DNA of 29,183 nucleotides from a virus. The position numbers and the translations under genes are program-made. Below are positions 7,349 to 22,869 of the stretch, in pieces. The notes below the pieces were generated by a model. It saw only the letters and a program-made list of their open reading frames with translations. It was not told the origin of the DNA and did not search any database. The stretch covers positions 1 through 29,183 of IMG/VR virus record IMGVR_UViG_3300044625_000244. One strand, 5' to 3'. How positions within the stretch are numbered: the first letter of the stretch is position 1; the number at the start of each line of letters is the position of its first letter.

Positions 7349-9718
7349 TTAGCCACCAATTTCGTCAAAGCTTACACTTGAGCGAGCAGCGATGAAGTTA
7401 AGTGTGATGAAGTTGATAGAACGATTTGGCTTAATAAAGATATCAGCAACGAATTCGTTACGATCAATTACTTCACCAGTGTTGTTAGACTCATCACACT
7501 TAACGCGGAAGTCTGTTACGCCGCGACGACCTTGTACATCGCGTAAGAACGGTTCAACCAAGTTCTTGAACTGTGCACGAGTAAATGAATCATTGAATTC
7601 AAACATCTGATAGCGTGCTGCAATCGCAATAGATTTTTCAAGAACAATAAACAAGCGACGTACGTTAACACGATCAAAGGCGCTTGGTCTTGCCAACATC
7701 GTCTTATCGCCGTAAAGGATGGTTCCTTGACCTGGGAATGCTGTAACTGGATTAATACCATTCTGATACAATATATCGCGATCTGCTTGACTTGGGTTCA
7801 ATCCAAGCTTAACGATATTCTTAATCTGACCGCGATTGAAACCGCCTGGAGAGAACCAAGGATCTGCGGTGTAATCAGTACGAGCACATAGACCAGCTAC
7901 GTCTCCGTTTAGTGGAACCCAACGATATGCATCGTTATAGCGATCATACTGGTACTTGAATCCAGAATCCATTACTGCATAAGAACTATTGATCGAAGTA
8001 TCATTCTTATAACTAATCATTGCATTAGTTGCAGTAGAACCTAAAGAAGTAATTGGTTCTCCGCCTGCATTTGGAGAAATAAACACAATACAATCTTTAC
8101 GTGGCTCTAGTAAATCTAGAATCTGTTTAGCAGTTGAAGCTGCTACGTTACCAACCGGAACTAAAGAGATATCATATTGTTCTGAGTTAGTTAGTGGAGT
8201 GTATGCAGTTACGATATTTGCAGCAGTAGAATTGAAATCATCTACACCGCCAGATAGCGTTACATCGTTTGTAATGATGTTTTGTGCAAATGCAACCATA
8301 ACCGCAACAGCCTTAGAAGATGTTGCTGCTACTTGTGCACGGGTTAGACCCCATCCGCTCTTAGCTATAGAAGTTAATTGAAGATTAGTAACACTCTCGC
8401 TTGATAATCCTTGAGCTACTTTAATAATGTAACCAGTAACAGTTGGAGAACCTGTCGTAGTAATACTTACAATGGTGCATGCTTTATTATTATTAACTGA
8501 TCCGGAAATCTGTAATTGGCGTGATGCTTTATCTGGTGCTAAATCCCACCATGTTTTGAAAGCAGCAAGTGTAGTGAAACCATCGCTATCTGTAATGGTA
8601 ATACTTCCACCTACACCAGTTTCATTACCTACAGGAGCTAAAGTACCAGATACACCAGTTGCAGCAGTAATTACTGAACTGTTTGGTTCTGATGTCGTAT
8701 CAGTTGCGTGATCCATCCACCAGATGTATCTAGAACTAGAATTGATAACACTCTTGTAATAATTATTAGAACCATCTGAATTCTTAGCATCAGATAGTTT
8801 AGATAAGAATGAGTATTTTTCTATAACTGATCCAGGTACACCACTGAAATCACCTTTATCATTATCGTATATTACGATATGTATCTCGTCGTTTGTAACA
8901 CCAACTTCACTAGCCCATTTACTTGTTCCAGGTACACCTTGGAATAATGCTTTAATCTTAACATCAGCTGTAGCCCAGTTACCAGCATCTAGGCGTACAA
9001 CGCGTAATCCATTTCCCATATCACCAGGAAACTTAGCAGCCCATGTACCAAATGTACCAGCTCCGCTATTATATGATGCTAGATATTGAGTAACGTTTTT
9101 AATCTTTGGTGCACCAGCTGTTGCCGAAAATACTGCTTGTGCTGTTGCTGCAGTACCACTTGCTGGTGCCGAAATGGTAATTATTGGAGCAGAGGTATAA
9201 CCACTACCTAGTGTTTGAACTGTGATACCAGTGATAGTACGTGTTCCGGTTTGATTAGGAGCAGTACCGGTAACGTTATCTGTGTAGGTAACAATTGCTG
9301 TTGGTGCAATACCACCACCAATTTGAGGAGCGCTAAATGAAACAGTTGGAACTTCACCTAATTGTGAATTCATAGCTGGAGCATATCCGCTACCCGGTGT
9401 AAAGTTAATAACTCCACTTATACCACCGCTTGCAACTGATACGGCATTTCTTATACCAGGAGCATCACTTCGTACAACCAACATGTTGTTAGTATAAGAT
9501 AAGAAATTCGCGGCGGTAAAGAAAGACTGATAGTTTTCATCGGTTGGTTTACCGAATCTCGATACTAAATCGGTTTCTGAAGAAACTCTAACTGGATCTT
9601 CAACCGGACCCCAAGCAAATGGTCCAGCGAAGGCTCCAGCCGAAGAAGAAACTGCTGGCACGATTGAAGAAAAATCTTTTTCTACAACGGCTACTCCTGG
9701 GCTTAGTTGAAAAGGCAT
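7349..9718 (-). CDS. gp18: Contractile tail sheath protein gp18
   Basis: This 789-residue sheath protein (from MPFQLSPGVAVVEKDFSS) is the gp18 family. It surrounds the tube and contracts at infection. The N-terminal FQLSPGVAVVEKD and AGPFAWGPVEDPVRVSSETD are typical. The C-terminal domain carries NFITLNFIAARSSVSFDEIGG. It is longer than T4 gp18 (659). About residues 100-205 hold glycine-rich repeats of an 'SGYTSAPIITISAP' type also found in gp14, and a further variable insert lies at about 355-470. The frame opens at 9742, but the ATG at 9718 with ribosome site CAGGAG is the better start. The upstream codons would cover the leader of the GATAAATA promoter. Confidence 0.96.
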   Translation of the reverse strand: MPFQLSPGVAVVEKDFSSIVPAVSSSAGAFAGPFAWGPVEDPVRVSSETDLVSRFGKPTDENYQSFFTAANFLSYTNNMLVVRSDAPGIRNAVSVASGGISGVINFTPGSGYAPAMNSQLGEVPTVSFSAPQIGGGIAPTAIVTYTDNVTGTAPNQTGTRTITGITVQTLGSGYTSAPIITISAPASGTAATAQAVFSATAGAPKIKNVTQYLASYNSGAGTFGTWAAKFPGDMGNGLRVVRLDAGNWATADVKIKALFQGVPGTSKWASEVGVTNDEIHIVIYDNDKGDFSGVPGSVIEKYSFLSKLSDAKNSDGSNNYYKSVINSSSRYIWWMDHATDTTSEPNSSVITAATGVSGTLAPVGNETGVGGSITITDSDGFTTLAAFKTWWDLAPDKASRQLQISGSVNNNKACTIVSITTTGSPTVTGYIIKVAQGLSSESVTNLQLTSIAKSGWGLTRAQVAATSSKAVAVMVAFAQNIITNDVTLSGGVDDFNSTAANIVTAYTPLTNSEQYDISLVPVGNVAASTAKQILDLLEPRKDCIVFISPNAGGEPITSLGSTATNAMISYKNDTSINSSYAVMDSGFKYQYDRYNDAYRWVPLNGDVAGLCARTDYTADPWFSPGGFNRGQIKNIVKLGLNPSQADRDILYQNGINPVTAFPGQGTILYGDKTMLARPSAFDRVNVRRLFIVLEKSIAIAARYQMFEFNDSFTRAQFKNLVEPFLRDVQGRRGVTDFRVKCDESNNTGEVIDRNEFVADIFIKPNRSINFITLNFIAARSSVSFDEIGG
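9107..9421 (-). repeat. Two copies of the SGY-x-PTVTIS module inserted in gp18
   Basis: Within gp18 two related protein repeats lie in tandem: GVINFTPGSGYAPAM...VPTVSFSAP and ITVQTLGSGYTSAPIITISAP, each followed by an alanine-rich strand. They match the two repeats in gp14. The first copy is more diverged and carries a small insertion. Confidence 0.7.
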
Positions 9719-9765
9719 GTTAAAACTCCTGTTATTATGCAATAAACATCTTATGATGTCTATAT

Positions 9766-9773
9766 TATTTATC
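9766..9773 (-). promoter_or_regulatory. Late promoter GATAAATA before gp18
   Basis: GATAAATA reads from 9773 to 9766 on the minus strand, in the gap after gp17. T4 spacing predicts a leader of about 42 bases to the gp18 ATG. It differs from the T4 consensus only at the first base. Confidence 0.6.
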
Positions 9774-9785
9774 TATAATCAGTTT

Positions 9786-11405
9786 TTAGAAGTTAGCAAG
9801 TACTTGCTCACTGTCTGTATTTCCATCATTATAAAATCCGAATGGTGTTAGTTGATCTTCGATCATCTTAATTCTATTTTCGTATATCACTTGTCTAATA
9901 TTTATATTACTCAATTCTTTAAAGTATGAATTGGTAGTCGCCCACGAAAATAAAACAAGAGGCATAACTAGATCATCATGATAGCCATCGTCGGCTTCAA
10001 AAGAATTCTTCTTTTGTATGAAAGTTGATATTTCGGATATGATATCAGCATCAGGAATTAGAAGTTTCTTCTCTTCGACTAGTGTCTTAAAGTTAGAACA
10101 TCCAATTCTTTTAACCTTCTTATCAGTAGTAACTCCGAACTGAGTTTTACCACCGCCAAATCCGCCCGATATTACCTGTCCGTCTGTGTTTCTGTTCACC
10201 ATTATAAGATTGTCATACTCATATTCATTATAAAGAATATCTGCAACTTGCTCTGAACTATTAATTTCAACTAGAACATATGCATTATTGAATTCCTTAG
10301 CCACCGTATATATGACTGTAGGATACAACAATGGACTAATCTTGTTATCACGATATTTACCAACTACCTTATATGGCATAGAAGACATATCCACTATGAC
10401 AAATGCAGAGTAATCTCCATCAACTCCCTTTGCGGTATCTGCTATTAGACAATATGTTCTGTCTTCTTGAGCATCACCGTTAGAAACTTTAACTGGCTTT
10501 TCATATACATCTAAGCCATCCTTACTATATATTATATCTCCAGGAGACATCTGAGAGATAGCATTAGCAGATATAAGTGTAAGACTTGATCCAAGGAACT
10601 TACACAATACTTCTTGGTTAAACTTAAGATCACCGAGCAATTTGTGTTGCGCTGCTGCCCACTTCTCGTCTCGACCTGGAATGTCTGTGTATGGAATGAA
10701 TAATGGAACGAAACCGTTACGTCCTTTTTCCGCATCATTCCAGAATTTCCAGAAATGATTATATCCAAGAGGAGTAGAACTTAATAGAATCTTTGTGGTT
10801 TGACCTGCAGAGATTGTAGGATAAACAGAAGTAAAGAACTGTTCTGCAACTGTGTTTGGAATAATTGCGGCCTCGTCGACATATAACATGTTAACGGATT
10901 TACCACGAATACCCGATGTTGTAGTTGCTGAGGTGAATACCTTAGATCCATTCTCAAGTTCAATATCACCTTTGTTCCATGTTACTACACCTTGTTGCAT
11001 CCACTTAGGAAGCATTTCGTACATAACCTGATAGCGATCTAAAACTTCTCGAGCTGCACTAGCTTTGTTAGCAAGAATAGCAACAGACTTATTTGCTTGA
11101 AATAAAGTGTACCAAAGAATGTATGCTGCAGATGTTGTAGTCTTACCTTGCTGACGTCCTTCCATAAGAATAACCATGCGGTTATTATGAATAACATTTA
11201 GCTTATTGACCTGACAAGGATAGAGACTGAACTTCTGAAGACCATGATCGAGAGTAACGATATAGCAATAATTACTAATGAAGTATATGTGATCTTCTGC
11301 ACACTTCATATACTCTTCAAGTTGATCCTTGTCAAAGGATATGACTTGACCAGCACTCTTTAGATTAGAGTTAGAATTATAAAACTTTACATCATTTGTT
11401 GCCAT
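9786..11405 (-). CDS. gp17: Large terminase subunit gp17 (packaging ATPase and nuclease)
   Basis: This 539-residue protein is the gp17 motor that cuts concatemeric DNA and pumps it into the prohead through gp20. The ATPase domain has the Walker A motif GRQQGKTT (83-90), Walker B MLYVDEAA (173-180, D177 and E178) and coupling motif LLSSTP (207-212). The RNase H-like nuclease domain has IADTAKGVDGDYSAF (D323), VLVEIN (E380) and GYHDDLVM (D477/D478), which align with the T4 acidic triad. Length is close to cyanophage gp17 and shorter than T4 (610). It starts 6 bases after gp15, with no intervening gp16. No strong ribosome site precedes the ATG. Confidence 0.98.
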   Translation of the reverse strand: MATNDVKFYNSNSNLKSAGQVISFDKDQLEEYMKCAEDHIYFISNYCYIVTLDHGLQKFSLYPCQVNKLNVIHNNRMVILMEGRQQGKTTTSAAYILWYTLFQANKSVAILANKASAAREVLDRYQVMYEMLPKWMQQGVVTWNKGDIELENGSKVFTSATTTSGIRGKSVNMLYVDEAAIIPNTVAEQFFTSVYPTISAGQTTKILLSSTPLGYNHFWKFWNDAEKGRNGFVPLFIPYTDIPGRDEKWAAAQHKLLGDLKFNQEVLCKFLGSSLTLISANAISQMSPGDIIYSKDGLDVYEKPVKVSNGDAQEDRTYCLIADTAKGVDGDYSAFVIVDMSSMPYKVVGKYRDNKISPLLYPTVIYTVAKEFNNAYVLVEINSSEQVADILYNEYEYDNLIMVNRNTDGQVISGGFGGGKTQFGVTTDKKVKRIGCSNFKTLVEEKKLLIPDADIISEISTFIQKKNSFEADDGYHDDLVMPLVLFSWATTNSYFKELSNINIRQVIYENRIKMIEDQLTPFGFYNDGNTDSEQVLANF

Positions 11406-11411
11406 GCTATA

Positions 11412-12134
11412 TTAATATTCGTCCCAAGAAGTTGTTACATTTCCTGTAGTAGTATTGCCTTGTTGTTCTAAATCTGCAAAAGATGCTAAATCGGGGTCAT
11501 CGGTGTTAATGAATATAGTCTTAATGATATCACCATTTTGAACTGGTCCATACATCCATGCCTTCATCGTAAAGTTGAATGTATATGTTACAAATCTTCT
11601 GGTCTGAAAGTCACCATCATATTCATCGCTCATGCTCACTGAATTTAATATGACTGGAATATCGCTCTTGATGTTTGAGTCAGGAATTGTATTGATAGTC
11701 ATCGTTAATTCTGGAGAGAAGTACGGAACTATCTGTTCCATAATCTGAAGACCATCTTCTGATGTCTTAGCGAGTGCGTATAAACTTATCTCAATATTAT
11801 ATGGTACTGGCGCGTAAGTCTTTTTAGTAAGGTTAGGAGTTGAACACGTTATAAAGGATGTTCTATTAAACTTACGTTGAGCATCATAACTAAATCCTGT
11901 AATTTCAAATGCCATTCTTGGTAATACTGTATATACATGATTCTCGAGAGAAGAATCTTGCTCAATTCTGACTAACCATTTTTCCTTTGGTGCATACGTA
12001 ATAGGCACTGCTATCGTCTGTTGCTGACTCTTATCGGCATTCTCACGCTTGATTTTGATGTCACTGAATAGACTACCGAACGCTACAATAGTTTTTCTCG
12101 TAATTCCGTGATAGAAGATATCGTTGTTTAGCAT
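11412..12134 (-). CDS. gp15: Tail terminator / sheath stabiliser gp15
   Basis: This 240-residue protein is the T4 gp15 family, a hexamer that caps the tail tube and last sheath ring and joins the tail to the neck. The start MLNNDIFYHGITRKTIVAFG, followed by LFSDIKIKRE, is characteristic, as is the PVPYNIEISLYALAKTSEDG segment in the middle. Length is near that of T4 gp15 (272). The open frame can be read from a TTG at 12140, but the ATG at 12134 with GGAG eight bases upstream is preferred. It follows gp14 almost directly and precedes gp17. Confidence 0.93.
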   Translation of the reverse strand: MLNNDIFYHGITRKTIVAFGSLFSDIKIKRENADKSQQQTIAVPITYAPKEKWLVRIEQDSSLENHVYTVLPRMAFEITGFSYDAQRKFNRTSFITCSTPNLTKKTYAPVPYNIEISLYALAKTSEDGLQIMEQIVPYFSPELTMTINTIPDSNIKSDIPVILNSVSMSDEYDGDFQTRRFVTYTFNFTMKAWMYGPVQNGDIIKTIFINTDDPDLASFADLEQQGNTTTGNVTTSWDEY

Positions 12135-12136
12135 AA

Positions 12137-13045
12137 TCAATCTCCAAACGGATTAGATGTATCAAACACATGAGTCACTGCTTCTTGTTTGAATGATGTA
12201 TTGCTGCCAAATGAATTTGGATTATCTACATTAATATGTATTGTTGCTACAGCTACAGCTGTAACTCCTGATGCTGGAGATGATATCGTCACAGTTGGAA
12301 TAGAAGTATATTGAGATCCCGCATTAGTGATGGTAATTGCAATTACTTTTCCAGCATTAGATCCAGTTCCTAAAGTTGCCACTGCAGTAGCACCTAAACC
12401 TCCTCCACCACTTATCGTTACAGTTGGAATAGAAGTATAACCAGAACCATTATTAGTTACATTTATGCTCAACACTTCACCATATACAGATCTTGTGACA
12501 TCAGTGGAAAAAGTTTTAAGACTTTCGAACGTGTCAATTTCCTTATATCCAGTTTCAATCTTCTCAGAACTATACTGGAATAGTTCTACTTGTAAACGAT
12601 ATACGTACAGTTTCTTGAGTTGATAGAATGGATCTTGATGATCTACAAACTTAATCTCGAATAAACCTTTTGTTAATGGGAAGTACAATAGATCGCCTTC
12701 GGCTGGACGATTTGGTAGGATGATGTCGGTATGCTTTCCTACAAACTTTTCCCAAGTTCTGCGAGCCACTGTAAGTGTTGCGGATTGCTCCATCATTAGA
12801 CCAAACTTCTGAATGAAAGCTCCTTGGCCTGCAAATCCATCTACAGTTTCGAGATACATATCGATTGGATAAGCATCTTGAAACTTTGACATACGATCTT
12901 CACCAAGAATTTCGTCTTTAGCTACTAGAGTTCTAGGAATGTAAAACATTTCCTGGCCATAGATAGAGATTGACTCTATCGTAAGGTCTTCTAGTAGGTA
13001 CTGTTCGTTCTTAGTACCGTGAGAAAAGTAAACGTTGCGTGCCAT
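12137..13045 (-). CDS. gp14: Neck protein gp14 with inserted repeat module
   Basis: This 302-residue protein is the gp14 neck protein, which joins with gp13 to complete filled heads and make the collar where the tail docks. The N-terminus [20 protein letters not shown], with [14 protein letters not shown] next, and [19 protein letters not shown] (117-135) are family segments. Residues about 190-270 contain two tandem copies of an '[12 protein letters not shown]' beta module that T4 gp14 lacks. After them the conserved C-terminal part resumes ([18 protein letters not shown]). Order gp13-gp14-gp15 matches T4, and it starts 1 base after gp13 ends. Confidence 0.93.
12236..12478 (-). repeat. Two tandem copies of the SGY-x-PTVTIS module in gp14
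   Basis: Residues 192-228 and 236-270 of gp14 repeat the pattern I-x-I/V-T-N[14 protein letters not shown] followed by an Ala/Val strand. At DNA level the string ACAGTTGGAATAGAAGTATA occurs in both copies on the plus strand (near 12291 and 12420), so the duplication is fairly recent. Confidence 0.85.
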
Positions 13046-13807: not shown

Positions 13808-13815
13808 TATTTATG
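13808..13815 (-). promoter_or_regulatory. Late-promoter box CATAAATA before gp13
   Basis: CATAAATA reads from 13815 to 13808 on the minus strand, overlapping the stop codon of the upstream 1021-residue gene. T4 spacing gives a leader of about 15 bases with AAGGAA before the ATG of gp13. It would start the neck and packaging transcript. Confidence 0.6.
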
Positions 13816-16800
13816 CTGATTCACTAACTAATCTATTATAAAGAGTAGAACCAAGAAGACTGCTTAAGGTAGTGCCTTGATTGAATAGTAGTGAATTCGT
13901 TGCATTAGTTGAAGTAACTGAGTTCAGAGTTAAACTACCTGCAATAATGCGTGTAGAATCTGCAAACGTTCCATTTCTACTTAAATAATACCCAGCTAAG
14001 TTGATTGTATAATTACCGCCACTATAAGTGACGTTAAGATCGGCAGTAGATGCTACTCGTGCTCCATTCGATCTGAATAATAAACTCAAATCAACTCTAT
14101 CGCCAGAGGTAGATAGCAAACCAGTAACTGCAGTATATTGATAACCAACCGAATATCCTATAGCACCGGCAATTACAATTCTGTCTGCTCCGCTACCACC
14201 GTTCATAACAACGCGCCCCATTCCTATAGATGCATTAATGAGTTTATCATCTCCATTACTGGTATTTAAGAACACATTCGAAGCACTACCTTCATTTCTT
14301 CCAATTATTATTGTGGTATCAGCCCCAATTTCAGGATATGCTCTACCAGAGTTAATTTCGGTTTGAGGACCACCAGTTCCACCAACTGGATACGTAGAAT
14401 TATCGCGCGATATAATAATCGTATCATTAAGATCACCACTAATTACAATGTCTATAAGATTATTTCCATACATCGTAGCAATGTGAGGTATTAATGTAGA
14501 TCCTCCATAGTTGGGACTTTGAGGAATATTGTCATAGTGAATTCGTTGGGCAAACAAAATACCACTTAAAATACTTGAACTTACACCTTGTTCAACATAA
14601 ACATTCCAAGAGAAAGATGCTGGAGGTGAATATGGTGCAACGGTATCAACAGTAGTATAAAAAACTCTGGCTTCTGCTCCCCAAGTGGGATCAATTTCAT
14701 AATATTTTGTTACATATATTATCTCACGATCTTCATAGTTTGGAAAAATACTCATATTAACTAAACCACCTGTATTGCTCCAAGTAGGAATATTTGCGCC
14801 ACCATAAAAAGCGCCTTCTATAGTTCTGAATTCTGCTTTTGATCCAATGGGTCTAATTTTTAAAGTGTTAGTTCCATCCGTAATAGTTATGCGCGCAATC
14901 TTTTCACCATTTGGATTAATAATTTGTGTTTTTCCCGTCAATGGATCTGTGACACTAAATAATATTTTATCATATAGTGGATCAGTAGGATGTTGCTCAT
15001 ACGATGAAGATATTAATCTTTCTAAATAATTGGGAAGTGCTTTTAGTGGACGATTATAAGATACTGGACCTAAATCAAATGTATGTCTCGTGAAAGTACC
15101 AATATAATAATTTTCAACAAGCGCATCTGCATTATAAGTACTAGGACTTGTTATCATGCCACCAATTGTATTAGAAGGAGATGTATAAGTAGTCGTTTGA
15201 CAAAACGCATGAAAAGTATCATAATTAACACTAGATATCGCGTATGTCATTAGTGTTAATTGCGCACCCAGACCTCCCGAATCGCCCCCTCCATACGGTC
15301 TTTCATTCTTACTGGTATACGTGAATGAAGTGCCAAATTTATATTTTCCGTTGTCGCTCGTTAAGCCAGGTTCTAGTTGAAGTGAAAAATACGCAGGTGT
15401 AACGTTATAGTTATAATCATTACTATTTATTACAGCTTGTCCTCTTACATTATATACCACATAGCGTGTGCTAACATCAGATTCTGCAGTATATTCGAAT
15501 GACGCTGAAGAATAGCCCCCAACTTTAGCAGAAACTCCACGCAATACATTTGAACTCCCAGTATTAACACCGGCACGAACACTTAATCCTACTGCTACTG
15601 CAGTTGCACTAACACTATTAACTACATAACCTTTATTAACAGAACACATATATGATGTAGTATCATAATCAGGACTTTCCAGTTGACTAGTATCGGAAAC
15701 ACTTGACGTCATACTAATAAAATATGCAGTATTATATAAAAGATCAGATGAACTAGTCGCATCTGGATGAGGATCTCCTATAGAAATACCAGTTGCCCAA
15801 CTTGGTCTTACACCTCCTCCTACAACAGGATGAAAGTAATGAGGAGAAGTTGAAATATTAGTTCCAGTACTTGGATCTAACAAAAATAATACAGCACCAG
15901 AATTAAAACTATAGTTCGAGTCATTCGGTATAGTGGCATCACCAAAAAATGTAAGTGTAGTATCAACATAATTAGCTAAGACTACTACTTTTCCAACATG
16001 TTTATCATATCGTATTGCAACCGGAGCATACGTGAATCTATTTCCGGTTCCGCCAGTGGCTGCGCTAAATGGAGCATACTTCTTTGACCATACTACTGCT
16101 GGAGAAGCAGAAGCAGGACCTATTTTATATACTACAAGATCTTTTGTAGCATTGCTATCACGACCAGCAATATAATAGTACTTTTGTCCAGATTCTATAA
16201 CTTCACATGCACACGTAATTTCACTTAACGTAGAAAATGTAAACGTTGTATTTGCGATATATTTTCTACTATTGTCGGGATAGAAGTCAAAAAATATTGG
16301 AGCACCATTAACTTTGCCGAATACTCCTACAGTATCAGTTACGTTTTCATATGTAGTCTGACTAGTAGTAGTATTCCATGCGCCATTTCTTTCTGGTATC
16401 GCGATACCAGAAAGAAATGTATAAGGATTAGAAGCAGTATTAGAAGAGTAAAATCTAGTACTACTTAAATTGTTTCCATCAGCGTCGAACATATCAAGTC
16501 TAGCATAGGTGATACCACCACCCTGACTTTCAGTACCTACTGCTATTCGTCTTGTGCTAGTACTTACTGACGACATATAAGAACTAACTCTTCCTGGATT
16601 GTTAGAGCTTACATTAGACAAAGGTTTTTGTGTCCATCTAATATCACCTTTTGATGTCGTAGATATTAAGATGCCTCGATACGTGCCATCTCCGTTTACA
16701 GTATTACTGATACTACTGTTCATATTTGGAAATGGCAAATAGTCCTCACTTGAATAAGAATTTATGTTCTTCACAGGCCCATATATCTTAAACCAAGAAT

Positions 16801-16876
16801 TAGAAATTCCAGACTTAAGAGTGTCTTTTCTGTTCTCGCTAAAAGCTGATAGCGCTAAAGATGAGATTGCTGGCAT
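13811..16876 (-). CDS. Large tail-fibre or virion surface protein with RTX-like C-terminus
   Basis: This 1021-residue protein starts MPAISSLALSAFSENRKDTL. The N-terminal half has repeated strand blades (ARLDMFDADGNNLSSTRFYS, YYYIAGRDSNATKDLVVYKI, GKVVVLANYVDTTLTFFGDA) that look like a beta-propeller. The C-terminal part holds an RTX-like region: NTSNGDDKLINAS and NGGSGADRIVIAG (about 871-904), then SGDRVDLSLLF. This resembles the calcium-binding repeats and C-terminal domain of secreted bacterial RTX proteins. No signal peptide is seen. It lies at the end of the fibre cassette, directly before gp13, and starts 4 bases after the 235-residue fibre gene with no clear ribosome site. A receptor-binding or surface-adhesion role is inferred from position and domain type. 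Confidence 0.75.
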   Translation of the reverse strand: MPAISSLALSAFSENRKDTLKSGISNSWFKIYGPVKNINSYSSEDYLPFPNMNSSISNTVNGDGTYRGILISTTSKGDIRWTQKPLSNVSSNNPGRVSSYMSSVSTSTRRIAVGTESQGGGITYARLDMFDADGNNLSSTRFYSSNTASNPYTFLSGIAIPERNGAWNTTTSQTTYENVTDTVGVFGKVNGAPIFFDFYPDNSRKYIANTTFTFSTLSEITCACEVIESGQKYYYIAGRDSNATKDLVVYKIGPASASPAVVWSKKYAPFSAATGGTGNRFTYAPVAIRYDKHVGKVVVLANYVDTTLTFFGDATIPNDSNYSFNSGAVLFLLDPSTGTNISTSPHYFHPVVGGGVRPSWATGISIGDPHPDATSSSDLLYNTAYFISMTSSVSDTSQLESPDYDTTSYMCSVNKGYVVNSVSATAVAVGLSVRAGVNTGSSNVLRGVSAKVGGYSSASFEYTAESDVSTRYVVYNVRGQAVINSNDYNYNVTPAYFSLQLEPGLTSDNGKYKFGTSFTYTSKNERPYGGGDSGGLGAQLTLMTYAISSVNYDTFHAFCQTTTYTSPSNTIGGMITSPSTYNADALVENYYIGTFTRHTFDLGPVSYNRPLKALPNYLERLISSSYEQHPTDPLYDKILFSVTDPLTGKTQIINPNGEKIARITITDGTNTLKIRPIGSKAEFRTIEGAFYGGANIPTWSNTGGLVNMSIFPNYEDREIIYVTKYYEIDPTWGAEARVFYTTVDTVAPYSPPASFSWNVYVEQGVSSSILSGILFAQRIHYDNIPQSPNYGGSTLIPHIATMYGNNLIDIVISGDLNDTIIISRDNSTYPVGGTGGPQTEINSGRAYPEIGADTTIIIGRNEGSASNVFLNTSNGDDKLINASIGMGRVVMNGGSGADRIVIAGAIGYSVGYQYTAVTGLLSTSGDRVDLSLLFRSNGARVASTADLNVTYSGGNYTINLAGYYLSRNGTFADSTRIIAGSLTLNSVTSTNATNSLLFNQGTTLSSLLGSTLYNRLVSESA

Positions 16877-17637: not shown

Positions 17638-20600
17638 TTAGAAGAATGCTAGAAAATTACCTAGCGGCTTCTGTCTGACTGTCGTTGGAAATATAAATCC
17701 CAGCGTACCGGCAGTAGTAGAATTTTCTCCAACATTCCAAGTATTTGTTAATGGATATGCTCTAACAGAACTAAGAGTAACATGATTAATATTAGAAATT
17801 GCGCCTGCACCAGTATAAATCAACGTAGCGGGACTACCGCTTATTGTTAAGATACGTCCTACCTGACCAGAAGCTGTAAACGCATTTGCAAGAGTTTGTG
17901 TAGTAGTTCCGAGTGATATACTCGTAGGACCAGTTGAAGCATATGTATTGGTAATATTCTTAAAAGTGTTGTTACCGCTAATGGTCAACGAACTACCGCC
18001 CAGATTAAGCGTGATGCCCGAGTAGGATTTATCGCCGCCAGAAAAACTTTGACTAGAGGCAATCAAGTTAATGGTGCCTGTGCCTGTGACAGTAAGGTTG
18101 GTAGATGTTGCTGCATTAAACGCATTACCACCTGCACCCATTGTCCACGTGCCTGACCCAAGCGCTAAAGTTCTTACTGCGGTTCCAGACGCATTTACTT
18201 GTCCAGCATTAAAAGTAACGTTATATGAAACGGCATCAAAAGTTCCGGCGATAAATGAATATCCCGCACCTTGAGAAGCTGTAAGAGCATCTTGCAGCGT
18301 AACTGATCCGCCAGGTGTATTAATAGTAAAAACCTGCGTAAACGTTTTGCCCGCACTTGTAATCGTTTGATTACCACGACCAGCAAACGTTATATTGCCA
18401 CTACCTGATAGAGTTGTACCAGTGCCATTAATCCAATTACCATATACTGCAATTCCATTTCCGCCGTTTGCAAGCGTCATCGTATTGCTAGTTCGTGCAC
18501 TCATATCAATAGTGCCGATATTGAAAGGCCCACCAATGTTGGCAGTTGAGCCATTTGGTGGATTAGTAGTGAAAGCTGCTGTGTCCTGAGGCAATGGATA
18601 TGCCGTCGCATCTGCCGATCCACCACTAGTTAATGCCCATGATCCATTTCCAGAAGACAGCCAATTAGCGCCAGCACTACCCGTATAATAGACCGTCTTT
18701 GCTGCAGGAAACGTAATCCCACTGTTACCCCTACAGTTTCCAAACCTAGTCCCAGTCAAAGGCGCAGCACTTCCAGTAATTGCAATATCTCTGAAGTCAC
18801 AGTCAGTGATAGACGCCGAGTTAACCGTTAATGTACGTTGTGTGCCAATGATGTCAGAGGAAAGAAAGGTGCGGTATGCCGAATTAGTACCAGAGGTTAT
18901 TGACAAAGTGCTTATCGTTTGGTTGGCATTAAATGTCACTTGATTAATACCAATTCCTGGTGATGTTTGTCCGGCAATAGATAGTGTATTAAATGTGTTT
19001 GCGCCAGTGATCACAGTTGAAGTACAACTCGTGTTAGTGAAGTTAGCATTCCAAAAAGCAAGTCCAGGACTTGTTATACCAGCATTTGAAGCGTTTGTTC
19101 CAGTTATAGTTGATGTTCCTGCGTCAAATGTAAAATTGGCGCCAGAATTTACCGTAAATCCAATTGTAATGTTAATTATATTTGATGCACCAAGAGTTAA
19201 ACTTCTTCTTGCTGTTCCATTCACTGACATACGTGCAGCGGTGACAGTGAACCCAGCAGTATTAAGTGAACCACGTTCTAATAGAAAATTCTTTCCGGGA
19301 CCAATTGTTACGGCACCGCCTAATGTCCACGAGCCAAATCCAATAAAGTGAATATCATCAACATTTAAAGAAGCGCCATTACAATTTAACGTATAGCTTC
19401 CACCTTCTGCACCAGTTAAATTCAGTCTCCCAAGATATGAATGTGTTATACCTGTTGCAGCAAAAGTTGTGCTACCATGGATAGCAATAGGTGCAGATGA
19501 AGCACCAGCAAATGTTATGTTACCGGATGCAGGACCATCCATTGTGAATGCAGCACAACGAGCCATAGCCCCAACACCAGCATCAATTGTCGCGGTATAA
19601 GCTGTAGCGTTAGATGCGGAATTGAATACAACATTATCTAAAGAAGTTGGAATAGCAACACCACCGCCACCACCAGATGTAGTGTCCCACTTGGTGGTGG
19701 ATGACCAGTTGCCCGTGCCGCCTACCCAATATAGTGTGCGAGGTGCAGGAGCAGCAGTTCTAAAGACTGGTGCTGTTGCAGTTCCTGTACTATTAGCACC
19801 AGCGTAAAACTCCCCAGGACTAGTAGTAGAAACACCCCACGAACCCATTGCAAGATAATCGACGCCAGTGACAGCAGGACCAGCAATTACGTTTGTAGTG
19901 CTTGAGGAGCTTGTAATAGTTACTACATTACCCGCAGTACCAGTAACAGACCATTTTCCAATCGTGTTAATATTTGAACCAAAAGCAATTGTATGAGCCA
20001 CTGTTTTTGTAGAAGCCAATTCACCAAATGTATTATTTCCATTAATTGTAGTGGTTGAAGTTGAAGTCGTTCCTCCAATAATCAGTTTTTGAATATATAC
20101 ACCAACGTTTCCACCAAAATTTCGCGATGTAGTTGTATTATTTGACAACACAAGTGTTGCAGAACCTTCTACAACTACGGTTCCTTGAATAAAAAATGTA
20201 TCAATAGTTCCAGTTAACGTCCATGTTCCAGTGCCGAGTTTTAATTTTAACGCTAGTGGAGTTGTACTTGCAGACACCCCGGATACTGTTACGTTGTATG
20301 TAACAGCATCAAACGTACCTGAACCAAATGATATACTACCGTTAAAAGTAAACGCATCTGCTAATTGCACATACGATCCTGGTCTGAACATTAAAAAAGT
20401 CCCACCAGAAAAAGCGGTTCCATTACTAGTAATAGTTTGTGTTCCAATTTTCGAAAATGCAAAAGCCCCTAAGCTACCTGTCCAAGTAACACCAGTTCCA
20501 TTTTTCATGTCACCGTAAATATTAAGCGTAGTATTTGTAGTTGCAATTGTCATTGCAGTTGTTCGCGCTGACATATCTAAAGTGCCAATATTAAAACTGG

Positions 20601-22869
20601 CATCGATCGAGACTGTGCCAGCTGCTCCAGCGTTGTTAAACACTGCAGTGTCTTGTGCTAGTGGAAAGTTATTGATGTCAGGCGTACCACCAGATGTTGG
20701 TGCCCAACCCGTTGAGCTCAAGCTTTGAGCACCAGCAAGATTCCAATAAACTGTCTTGGCAGCAGGAAACGTAATTCCAGCATTATTGCCGCAATCTCCC
20801 GCTCGTGTGAGTGACGCGCCTATCGCTGCTCCGGCTAGGTTTATATCGCGAAAATCACAATCAGTAGAGGATATGCTGTTAACTGTTAATGTGCGTTGCG
20901 TGCTCATCGTGTCAGAGCGCAAAAAGACACGCCTTCTTGGAGATGATCCTGAACAGGTTAATGTACCAATAATTTGATCAGCAGAAAAAGCAACACCACC
21001 AATGCGGTCTGCATTCGGCGCAGCAAAAGATAAACTATTAAAAGTATTTGCACCACTAATTGAATGAGGTGTTAGAGGGGCGTTTGTAAAAGAAACGCTG
21101 TTAAAAGTATAACCACCACCACTAAATCCAATACTAGTTGAATTACTCATCGTAATCTGCGATGTTCCAGCGGAAAACGTTAAGTTAGGATTCGTTAAAG
21201 AATTTGGCAAAGAGAAAACTGTAGCGAGTAATGATATAACACTAGAACCTAAACTAATTGATCGAACGTTTGTTCCCGGACTTGAAAGACCACCGCCGTC
21301 AATGCTATTATTATTTGTGATGAAATTACCGGTGGTTACAGTAATTGTACTATTATAATCATATCTAAAAAAGTCAGCAAGCTGAACAGTACCACCATAA
21401 GTATCAATAGTAACACCACCTGGTAATCTCTTACCTGCGCTAGTGATCGTTTGTGTGCCGCCACCAGAAAACGTCAGTGCAGAACTTCCGCCGAATGATA
21501 TTCCACTTCCATTTGTCCAATTACCATAACAAGTATAAGCGTTACCAAATGACAATGTCAGTGCAGTTGTTCGCGCTGACATGTCCATAGTCCCCATATA
21601 GTTTCCCGATGCTATAGCATTTAACGAGATAAGAGAGAGGGAGTTATTTTGTATTATTATAGTATCTTGCGCTAATGGAAAATTGTCTAAACTTGCAGAT
21701 CCTCCTGGTGAGTTAGACCATATATTATCATACCAGTTAACTGAAGCAGTTCCGTTAAATACAGGATATACATTCTTAGCTGGAGTGAAAGATATTCCTG
21801 TATTATTTCCGCGATTACCAATGCGAGTTCCACTTATAGGAGTATTTGAACCAATTGCATAGATATCGCGAAAATCGACATCAGATAAGTTTGTCGTTGC
21901 ATTGATTGCAATAGTTTGTCCTATTCCATAAGTGCCAGAGGCAATAAGTATACGTCTATTTGGTGCAGTAGATTCAGTATAGAAATTTCCATTAATTGTT
22001 GGATACCCAGTAGTATTTCCATTGAAACTAACAGTTTGCTGCCAGGATTGAGTGACGCTTGATGGCCCAACTATCGTACAAGAACCAAGCGTAATATTGC
22101 CAGTAATTGAAGCAGGAGTTATAATTCTTAATCCGCCAATCCTAGCAGCACTACCAGAGCTAATGACTATATTAGTGTTGGCAGTTGGATTACTAAATCT
22201 ATTAACTAGTATAGTGGAAGCTTCCCATGCTGCACTACTAGCGTTATTAAATCGTATATTGCCTGCTTGAATATTGAATACACTAGATCCAAATCTACTA
22301 TTATTACCCATATTAAAAGTAGTAATAGCATTTCCGTTATCGGTTCTAATCTGAACATTATAATTGTTAGTTATAAGCGTGCCATTGATAGAAAACTCAA
22401 CTCCTGTTCGAGCAGGGTCGTGTGTTATATTGCTTAATAAATTAACAATGCTACCACCGCTGCCCAAAGTAAAAGTATAGGTAGTACCCATACTCTTACC
22501 AGCAAAATTTACATTCCAACTGCCAGTTCCTTGACATATAGACATATATACAAGTTGGTTCATGTCGAGAGTCATGGAAGGACTTAGAATAAAGTCCCCT
22601 TGCGAACTGAAGGCAAATTGGAAAGCACCTGTTCCTATTCTTAGTGTTCCACTATAACTTCCCGTAGTTGGATTGGTGCAATAAAAAGATCTAGATGATG
22701 CAGTAGTGGTTGTTGTTATAACGCCAACACCAGAATTTGAATCTAAATATACGTCATCAGAAATTGTCGGTGCACTAGCGCCACCAGCACCACCCGATGT
22801 TGCAGACCAGTTGGCTGTGGATGATGTATCCCAAGTGCCTGTGCCACCTACCCAATAGCGATTTGGCAT
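17638..22869 (-). CDS. Giant repetitive beta-rich fibre or tailspike-like protein (1743 residues)
   Basis: This is the largest gene in the window. The protein is Ser/Thr/Gly/Asn-rich with regular short strands, as in beta-helix adhesins. It begins MPNRYWVGGTGTWDTSSTAN, and the same opening recurs internally as LYWVGGTGNWSSTTKWD (1046-1061), suggesting two large halves. A hinge-like module recurs three times, at about residues 331-445, 670-780 and 1356-1470: DCDFRDI, then GITFPAAKTVYW, NFPLAQDT, IGTLDMSART. 'ISGANTFNSLSF' and 'GTQTITSAGK' also recur. No enzyme motif or signal peptide was seen. Ribosome site GCGGAG lies over the stop codon of the preceding gene. It is probably a surface fibre or spike; attachment point and ligand are unknown. 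Confidence 0.8.
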   Translation of the reverse strand: MPNRYWVGGTGTWDTSSTANWSATSGGAGGASAPTISDDVYLDSNSGVGVITTTTTASSRSFYCTNPTTGSYSGTLRIGTGAFQFAFSSQGDFILSPSMTLDMNQLVYMSICQGTGSWNVNFAGKSMGTTYTFTLGSGGSIVNLLSNITHDPARTGVEFSINGTLITNNYNVQIRTDNGNAITTFNMGNNSRFGSSVFNIQAGNIRFNNASSAAWEASTILVNRFSNPTANTNIVISSGSAARIGGLRIITPASITGNITLGSCTIVGPSSVTQSWQQTVSFNGNTTGYPTINGNFYTESTAPNRRILIASGTYGIGQTIAINATTNLSDVDFRDIYAIGSNTPISGTRIGNRGNNTGISFTPAKNVYPVFNGTASVNWYDNIWSNSPGGSASLDNFPLAQDTIIIQNNSLSLISLNAIASGNYMGTMDMSARTTALTLSFGNAYTCYGNWTNGSGISFGGSSALTFSGGGTQTITSAGKRLPGGVTIDTYGGTVQLADFFRYDYNSTITVTTGNFITNNNSIDGGGLSSPGTNVRSISLGSSVISLLATVFSLPNSLTNPNLTFSAGTSQITMSNSTSIGFSGGGYTFNSVSFTNAPLTPHSISGANTFNSLSFAAPNADRIGGVAFSADQIIGTLTCSGSSPRRRVFLRSDTMSTQRTLTVNSISSTDCDFRDINLAGAAIGASLTRAGDCGNNAGITFPAAKTVYWNLAGAQSLSSTGWAPTSGGTPDINNFPLAQDTAVFNNAGAAGTVSIDASFNIGTLDMSARTTAMTIATTNTTLNIYGDMKNGTGVTWTGSLGAFAFSKIGTQTITSNGTAFSGGTFLMFRPGSYVQLADAFTFNGSISFGSGTFDAVTYNVTVSGVSASTTPLALKLKLGTGTWTLTGTIDTFFIQGTVVVEGSATLVLSNNTTTSRNFGGNVGVYIQKLIIGGTTSTSTTTINGNNTFGELASTKTVAHTIAFGSNINTIGKWSVTGTAGNVVTITSSSSTTNVIAGPAVTGVDYLAMGSWGVSTTSPGEFYAGANSTGTATAPVFRTAAPAPRTLYWVGGTGNWSSTTKWDTTSGGGGGVAIPTSLDNVVFNSASNATAYTATIDAGVGAMARCAAFTMDGPASGNITFAGASSAPIAIHGSTTFAATGITHSYLGRLNLTGAEGGSYTLNCNGASLNVDDIHFIGFGSWTLGGAVTIGPGKNFLLERGSLNTAGFTVTAARMSVNGTARRSLTLGASNIINITIGFTVNSGANFTFDAGTSTITGTNASNAGITSPGLAFWNANFTNTSCTSTVITGANTFNTLSIAGQTSPGIGINQVTFNANQTISTLSITSGTNSAYRTFLSSDIIGTQRTLTVNSASITDCDFRDIAITGSAAPLTGTRFGNCRGNSGITFPAAKTVYYTGSAGANWLSSGNGSWALTSGGSADATAYPLPQDTAAFTTNPPNGSTANIGGPFNIGTIDMSARTSNTMTLANGGNGIAVYGNWINGTGTTLSGSGNITFAGRGNQTITSAGKTFTQVFTINTPGGSVTLQDALTASQGAGYSFIAGTFDAVSYNVTFNAGQVNASGTAVRTLALGSGTWTMGAGGNAFNAATSTNLTVTGTGTINLIASSQSFSGGDKSYSGITLNLGGSSLTISGNNTFKNITNTYASTGPTSISLGTTTQTLANAFTASGQVGRILTISGSPATLIYTGAGAISNINHVTLSSVRAYPLTNTWNVGENSTTAGTLGFIFPTTVRQKPLGNFLAFF
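18478..21879 (-). repeat. Three copies of a hinge module inside the 1743-residue gene
   Basis: Protein-level copies lie at about 21553-21879, 20548-20862 and 18478-18804. Copies one and two still share exact DNA words: TGCAGTTGTTCGCGCTGAC on the plus strand starts at 20554 and at 21562, and TATCGCGAAAATC occurs near 20847 and 21866. Copies two and three share GCAGGAAACGTAAT. The third is more diverged. The span given runs from the last to the first copy, with unrelated modules between. Confidence 0.8.

Follow-up and report, generated by a model that had tools for sequence, protein, structure and literature searches.

A predicted beta-domain of two repeats shared by the neck protein gp14 and the tail sheath protein gp18 in a T4-like virion gene block

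Introduction

Phage tails are already known to carry mobile beta-domains, and sheath proteins to carry extra domains (PMC9230969; PMC10684548); the additional sheath domains have been proposed to aid adhesion (PMC9230969). For contemporary domain mosaicism, a published criterion asks for at least 50 aa common to otherwise unrelated proteins at an identity of at least 50% (PMC10684548). In the sheath protein gp18 of phage T4, domain I (aa 98-188 in the literature) is a six-stranded barrel, which sticks out of the tail, makes no contacts between subunits, and binds the baseplate and the retracted fibres; the gp18 mutations G106S, S175F, and A178V inhibit fibre retraction (PMC3004832). In the T4 neck, aa 178-256 of gp14 contact gp15 when the tail docks (PMC12270204).

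The DNA analyzed here (the window) is a 29,183-base virus contig from IMG/VR, which carries a T4-like virion block on its minus strand. The block includes genes for the major head protein, scaffold, protease, portal, tail tube, gp18, gp17, gp15, gp14, and gp13, as well as large structural ORFs. An initial annotation, made from the sequence of the window, had proposed that gp14 and gp18 share a small repeat module as a mobile decoration of the virion surface. We have compared this module with those of related contigs, with T4 gp18 domain I, and with other phage and cellular proteins.

Materials and Methods

Default tblastn searches with the module or its consensus gave almost no matches, probably because of the low-complexity filter, and therefore profiles were used. 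E-values from the HMM of the window repeats are circular, since these repeats seeded the model, and have been excluded as homology evidence. Bacterial genomes were searched with a single natural module as the query. The gp14 tree was built on the core with the insert removed. AlphaFold2 models were built with alignments from related contigs; in the gp14 model the core was poor (pLDDT about 30-68), and only the well-modeled module part was used. For the T4 gp18 mutations, mature numbering (without the initiator Met) was taken because it alone fits all three mutated residues. The term "gp8-like" is our own label for a set of wedge proteins, and the match to PHROG 438 was tested on one of them, that of L206.

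Results

Two inserts with the same repeat

According to Pfam models, gp14 and gp18 of the window belong to the T4-type neck and sheath proteins, respectively. Each contains one insert composed of two copies of a repeat of about 42 aa, GSGY...P, whose strands follow the consensus GxVxxIxVTxxGSGY / PxVxI / GxGAxAxAxV and which has invariant G, Y, P, and A columns in the module alignment (Table 1). In gp14, the insert is placed between the beta-core and the C-terminal arm.

Table 1. Positions of gp14, gp18 and their inserted modules in the window
Feature	Position	Strand	Evidence or remark
gp14, head-closure/neck protein, 302 aa	12137..13045	-	Pfam T4_neck-protein E=3e-34; PHROG 460 head closure Hc2 E=6e-82; Foldseek to T4 gp14 9mkb E=2e-9
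gp14 insert, one two-repeat module, aa 187-272	12230..12487	-	Six predicted strands, pLDDT 81-89; relatives with clean flanks and no module
gp14 repeat 1, aa 189-228	12362..12481	-	Repeat motif
gp14 repeat 2, aa 229-271	12233..12361	-	Repeat motif
gp14 C-terminal arm, aa 273-302	12140..12229	-	Conserved in relatives with and without module; placed like the gp15-binding tail of T4 gp14
gp18, tail sheath protein, 789 aa from ATG	7349..9718	-	Pfam Phage_sheath_1, Phage_sheath_1C, Gp18_domIII_N; PHROG 23 E=1e-122; Foldseek to T4 gp18 E=8e-40
gp18 insert, one two-repeat module, aa 96-203, slot of T4 gp18 domain I	9110..9433	-	Relatives have 0, 2, 4 or 6 repeats flanked by NAV and KIKN
gp18 repeat 1, aa 97-150, diverged, with 8-aa loop insertion: GSGYAP(8-aa loop)VPTVSFS	9269..9430	-	Repeat motif; BLASTP
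gp18 repeat 2, about aa 156-199, GSGYTSAPIITIS	9122..9253	-	Repeat motif

The proposal that the two proteins carry the same module has been borne out. When gp14 was compared with gp18 by BLASTP with compositional correction, the inserts gave the only significant match (E=1e-7, 38% over 96 columns), and tblastn within the contig also joined them (E=7.6e-5). Alignment of a 64-member family of gp14 inserts with a 13-member family of gp18 inserts by hhalign gave P=2.3e-16 over 80 columns. These comparisons show that the two inserts are homologous. Recent copying within the genome was rejected, since the DNA of the gp14 module and that of the gp18 module are well diverged and the nearest kin of gp14 modules are other gp14 modules. 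The interval 9107-12478 originally assigned to the repeat also takes in gp15 and gp17, neither of which plays a part.

The initial annotation had also suggested a search of other virion genes. Among all ORFs of the window, the GSGY module was found in none besides gp14 and gp18; its occurrence in virion proteins of other phages is described below. Two large ORFs lie near gp13 (window 13811-16876, 1021 aa, and 17638-22869, 1743 aa); they lack the module, had no Pfam match at E<=10 and no PHROG match at E<=0.01, and may encode fibre or other virion proteins.

Predicted fold and the repeat pair as a unit

In the AlphaFold2 models, both modules have six predicted beta-strands, i.e., two repeats of three strands. 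They span aa 189-198, 208-212, 220-226, 234-241, 251-254, and 264-270 in gp14, and the main strands in gp18 span aa 98-107, 126-128, 140-150, 157-169, 180-182, and 192-198. In Foldseek comparisons, other proteins matched the module over 82-100 columns with deviations of about 1.2-3 A. Judging from copy numbers, repeats are gained and lost in pairs: among 59 distinct gp18 slots, nine were empty and 49 of the 50 occupied slots held two, four, or six repeats. The sheath of Klebsiella phage KA2-1 has exactly four repeats and those of its relatives have two.

Presence and absence among relatives

Alignment with relatives disclosed clean empty sites in both gp14 and gp18. The gp14 module is absent, with clean flanks, in L086-L089, L091, L097, L103, and L160, and in the module-less relatives the core runs straight into the conserved tail ...D.SFGDNNxFKEEA...NPFG. 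On the gp14 core tree there are at least three changes of presence, all forced by well-supported branches; the window's own gp14 clade is nested inside a clade of empty gp14s, and the module is kept throughout one large clade. The gp18 tree has six presence changes. The two genes are uncoupled in this respect, with the module only in gp14 in L050 and L060 and only in gp18 in L088, L089, and L097. Since close relatives lack the module in gp14 or in gp18, it is essential in neither, and the idea that these segments are core parts of the two proteins was rejected because of the relatives without them.

Sheath proteins of other phages have the pair at different places. In gp18 of Xanthomonas phage X1, it is found at aa 238-319, and in the sheaths of Persinger, PPpW-3, ep3 (the E. 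coli phage vB_EcoM-ep3), and FoX1 it lies within the subtilisin-like domain PF04984, at about aa 148-226. The sheaths of P2, Wolbachia WO, and AcaML1 have no pair at the latter site, where those of P2 and Wolbachia WO are about 90 aa shorter. The X1 module is 68% identical to gp18 modules over 74 aa, and the Persinger sheath module is 66% identical to gp14 modules over 79 aa, which exceeds both values of the mosaicism criterion (PMC10684548). Empty sites, as used to recognize a mobile (mosaic) virion domain, were thus found in close relatives of gp14, gp18, and other sheaths.

Two observations concern other sheath insertions. In two relatives (L130:1825-3993 and L131:18-2195), an unrelated domain of about 70 aa occupies the slot of the module, and therefore this slot takes different domains. 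A second, different insert is present in gp18 of the window at 8354-8686 (aa about 345-455); among the relatives' loci compared, it is confined to gp18 of the clade that includes the window (L002-L005, L083-L094, and L097), and it sits in the sheath region where phage X1 has its GSGY module.

Other proteins with the module

Searches of PHROG and BFVD located the module in baseplate wedges, hub-lysozymes, fibres, endosialidase proteins, and other virion proteins. Repeat regions within PHROG 460 (Hc2), 438 and 708 (wedges), 701, 19630, 5342 (fibre), and 1922 (hub-lysozyme) contain it, which means that virion proteins of other phages with the module are already on record without a name for it. 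The gp8-like wedge proteins of three related contigs (L203:1093-4056, L205:641-3304, and L206:969-3551), have been enlarged to 861-988 aa by up to five repeat pairs. Because the same pair is present at other sheath sites and in wedges, hubs, and fibres, the module is a mobile one. Mobility, which the initial annotation had suggested, is strongly supported by these comparisons: there are clean empty sites, several independent gains or losses, separate slots in distant sheaths, and identities of 66-68% across host proteins and slots.

The module was also detected in bacterial genomes and one archaeal genome (L217-L296; Verrucomicrobia, Planctomycetes, Chloroflexi, and others), often in large proteins, which have up to 19 repeats and some of which carry fn3, Big_7, or RCC1 domains beside them. 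One DUF3383 protein (L295) has the module, and a protein of the giant virus Sylvanvirus (BFVD A0A3G5AH46) matched the module model, with 54% identity across 96 columns. Searches with the inserts and the module found no Pfam or NCBIfam family, neither the module nor its profile had a sequence match in PDB, and the motif was not found printed in the literature searched.

Comparison with T4 gp18 domain I

The gp18 insert starts where T4 domain I starts, namely after the N-terminal stretch of domains III/II and before the remainder of domain II; on T4 gp18, Pfam PF22639 (Gp18_dom_I) covers aa 96-188. Alignment by phmmer pairs T4 PGSNYA with PGSGYA. The hhalign match between T4 domain I and the gp18 module is weak (probability 13.6%, P=0.002, score 23.0), and this score is higher than the maximum of 17.4 in 200 column shuffles, the 9.3 of the reversed profile, and the scores of sheath windows not overlapping domain I. 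The residues changed by G106S, S175F, and A178V belong to PGSNY (its glycine) and SSGLAA, and the profile alignment places them opposite the module's GSGY and SG-x-A motifs. The Pfam Gp18_dom_I model matched none of 46 gp18 relatives at E<=0.1, and the module profile had no match in the T4 genome. Six strands are predicted in the gp18 module, and the Foldseek match to T4 gp18 is one of the whole chain.

The statement that T4 gp14 and gp18 lack the module therefore stands for gp14, in which motif and profile searches did not find it, and is doubtful for gp18, since domain I fills the same slot. Common descent of T4 domain I and the module appears to us fairly probable, and the T4 sheath probably has a worn-down version of the module.

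Discussion

The module looks like an optional add-on on the tail exterior, since relatives have it in other tail parts or nowhere. We consider it probable, if by no means certain, that we are dealing with a mobile domain that folds independently and likely serves as an outward-facing surface for the docking or decoration of other parts of the virion itself. It would be a domain of about 85 aa, with two repeats of about 42 aa and three beta-strands each, which has entered surface loops of several virion proteins in phages with contractile tails. By analogy with T4 domain I, whose place it occupies and which is probably a diverged member, the gp18 module would form the outermost knob of the sheath. 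Because T4 gp14 aa 178-256 touch gp15, a knob at the gp14 insert would sit at the neck-tail joint. The location on the outer surface, which the initial annotation had assumed for both, is thus supported indirectly, by the slot of T4 domain I in gp18 and, in gp14, by the adjoining C-terminal arm, which in T4 grips gp15, and the external position of both modules is inferred from these analogies.

The likeliest job of such knobs would be to provide a docking or decoration surface, first of all for folded-up tail fibres and the baseplate, as T4 domain I does. T4 genetics, i.e., the fibre-retraction mutations, points to the phage's own fibres and baseplate as partners rather than the host, and with moderate confidence we favor this role over host binding, which would also be possible. 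In T4, the sheath exterior and the neck-tail joint would both lie along the path of the folded fibres, and gp8 is near the fibre root. It is conceivable, though in our view improbable, that copies in the gp8-like baseplate wedge, the sheath, the neck, and the fibres of related lineages would form a strip of matching docking knobs from baseplate to neck for the fold-back of long fibres, with T4 domain I as a degenerate single-barrel remnant.

The modules might instead be weak adhesins for host or particle binding, a use that the initial annotation had thought possible, and resemble in this the Ig-like domains of other virions; many copies of the module on the tail would raise contact with cell-surface sugars or particles. 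Bacterial proteins with long module arrays, some beside fn3 or Big_7, would fit such a use, and the occurrence of the module in many bacterial proteins makes a general adhesive or purely structural role possible. The presence of the module in tail-fibre, endosialidase, and hub proteins, as well as the adhesion proposed for extra sheath domains (PMC9230969), points the same way. However, the neck lies a long way from the cell during adsorption, and in T4 the partners of the counterpart are fibres and baseplate (PMC3004832); we hold this reading to be rather unlikely.

Somewhat less likely still is that the modules are neutral or mildly stabilizing additions, with insertion-tolerant external loops gaining and losing an easily folded beta-domain to little effect. 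The frequent changes of presence, the copy numbers of 0-6, and the uncoupling of gp14 from gp18 (L050 and L060 versus L088, L089, and L097) would be expected of such additions, whereas the retention of the invariant G, Y, P, and A of the repeat motif, and of the gp14 module over a large clade, suggests that at least the fold is under selection. That beta sequences rich in Gly, Ser, and Thr should resemble each other through low complexity by coincidence is hardly credible and was rejected: the module sequence is biased and filtering probably hides it in default searches, but the compositionally adjusted BLASTP match, the collinear full-length profile match (P=2e-16), the shared six-strand prediction, and the Foldseek matches contradict it.

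With docking or decoration as the preferred reading, the present analysis has identified an uncurated yet very common mobile domain of phage virions, the folding unit of which is a repeat pair and which enters sheath proteins at three separate sites. It accounts for much of the difference in size among the gp14, gp18, and gp8 proteins of related uncultured T4-like phages, and suggests where the outer domain I of the T4 sheath, the site of the fibre-retraction mutations, may have come from and what docking role it may have.

The module is a new and widespread addition to the known mobile beta-domains of virions, unnamed and, by sequence, with no structure solved. PHROG 460, 438, 708, 701, 19630, 5342, and 1922 contain it, yet no entry names it. 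In Prochlorococcus phage P-SSM2, gp14 has at least three copies of the module in the same region as in the window, while gp18, unlike that of the window, has none. T4 gp18 domain I resembles the module in its sheath slot, its six strands (predicted ones in the module), its size of about 90-100 aa, and the succession of PGSxY and SG-x-A; it differs in having an extra helix, in forming just one barrel within the T4 group, and in not being found in gp14 or other T4 proteins. The Ig-like domains of phages are likewise beta-domains that virion proteins of unrelated kinds may or may not carry on their surface parts, and they are horizontally exchanged. No Pfam match to the Ig, Big, or fn3 families was obtained in gp14 or gp18 of the window, and the module differs from the Ig-like domains in consisting of two like three-stranded repeats and in being carried also on gp14 and gp8.
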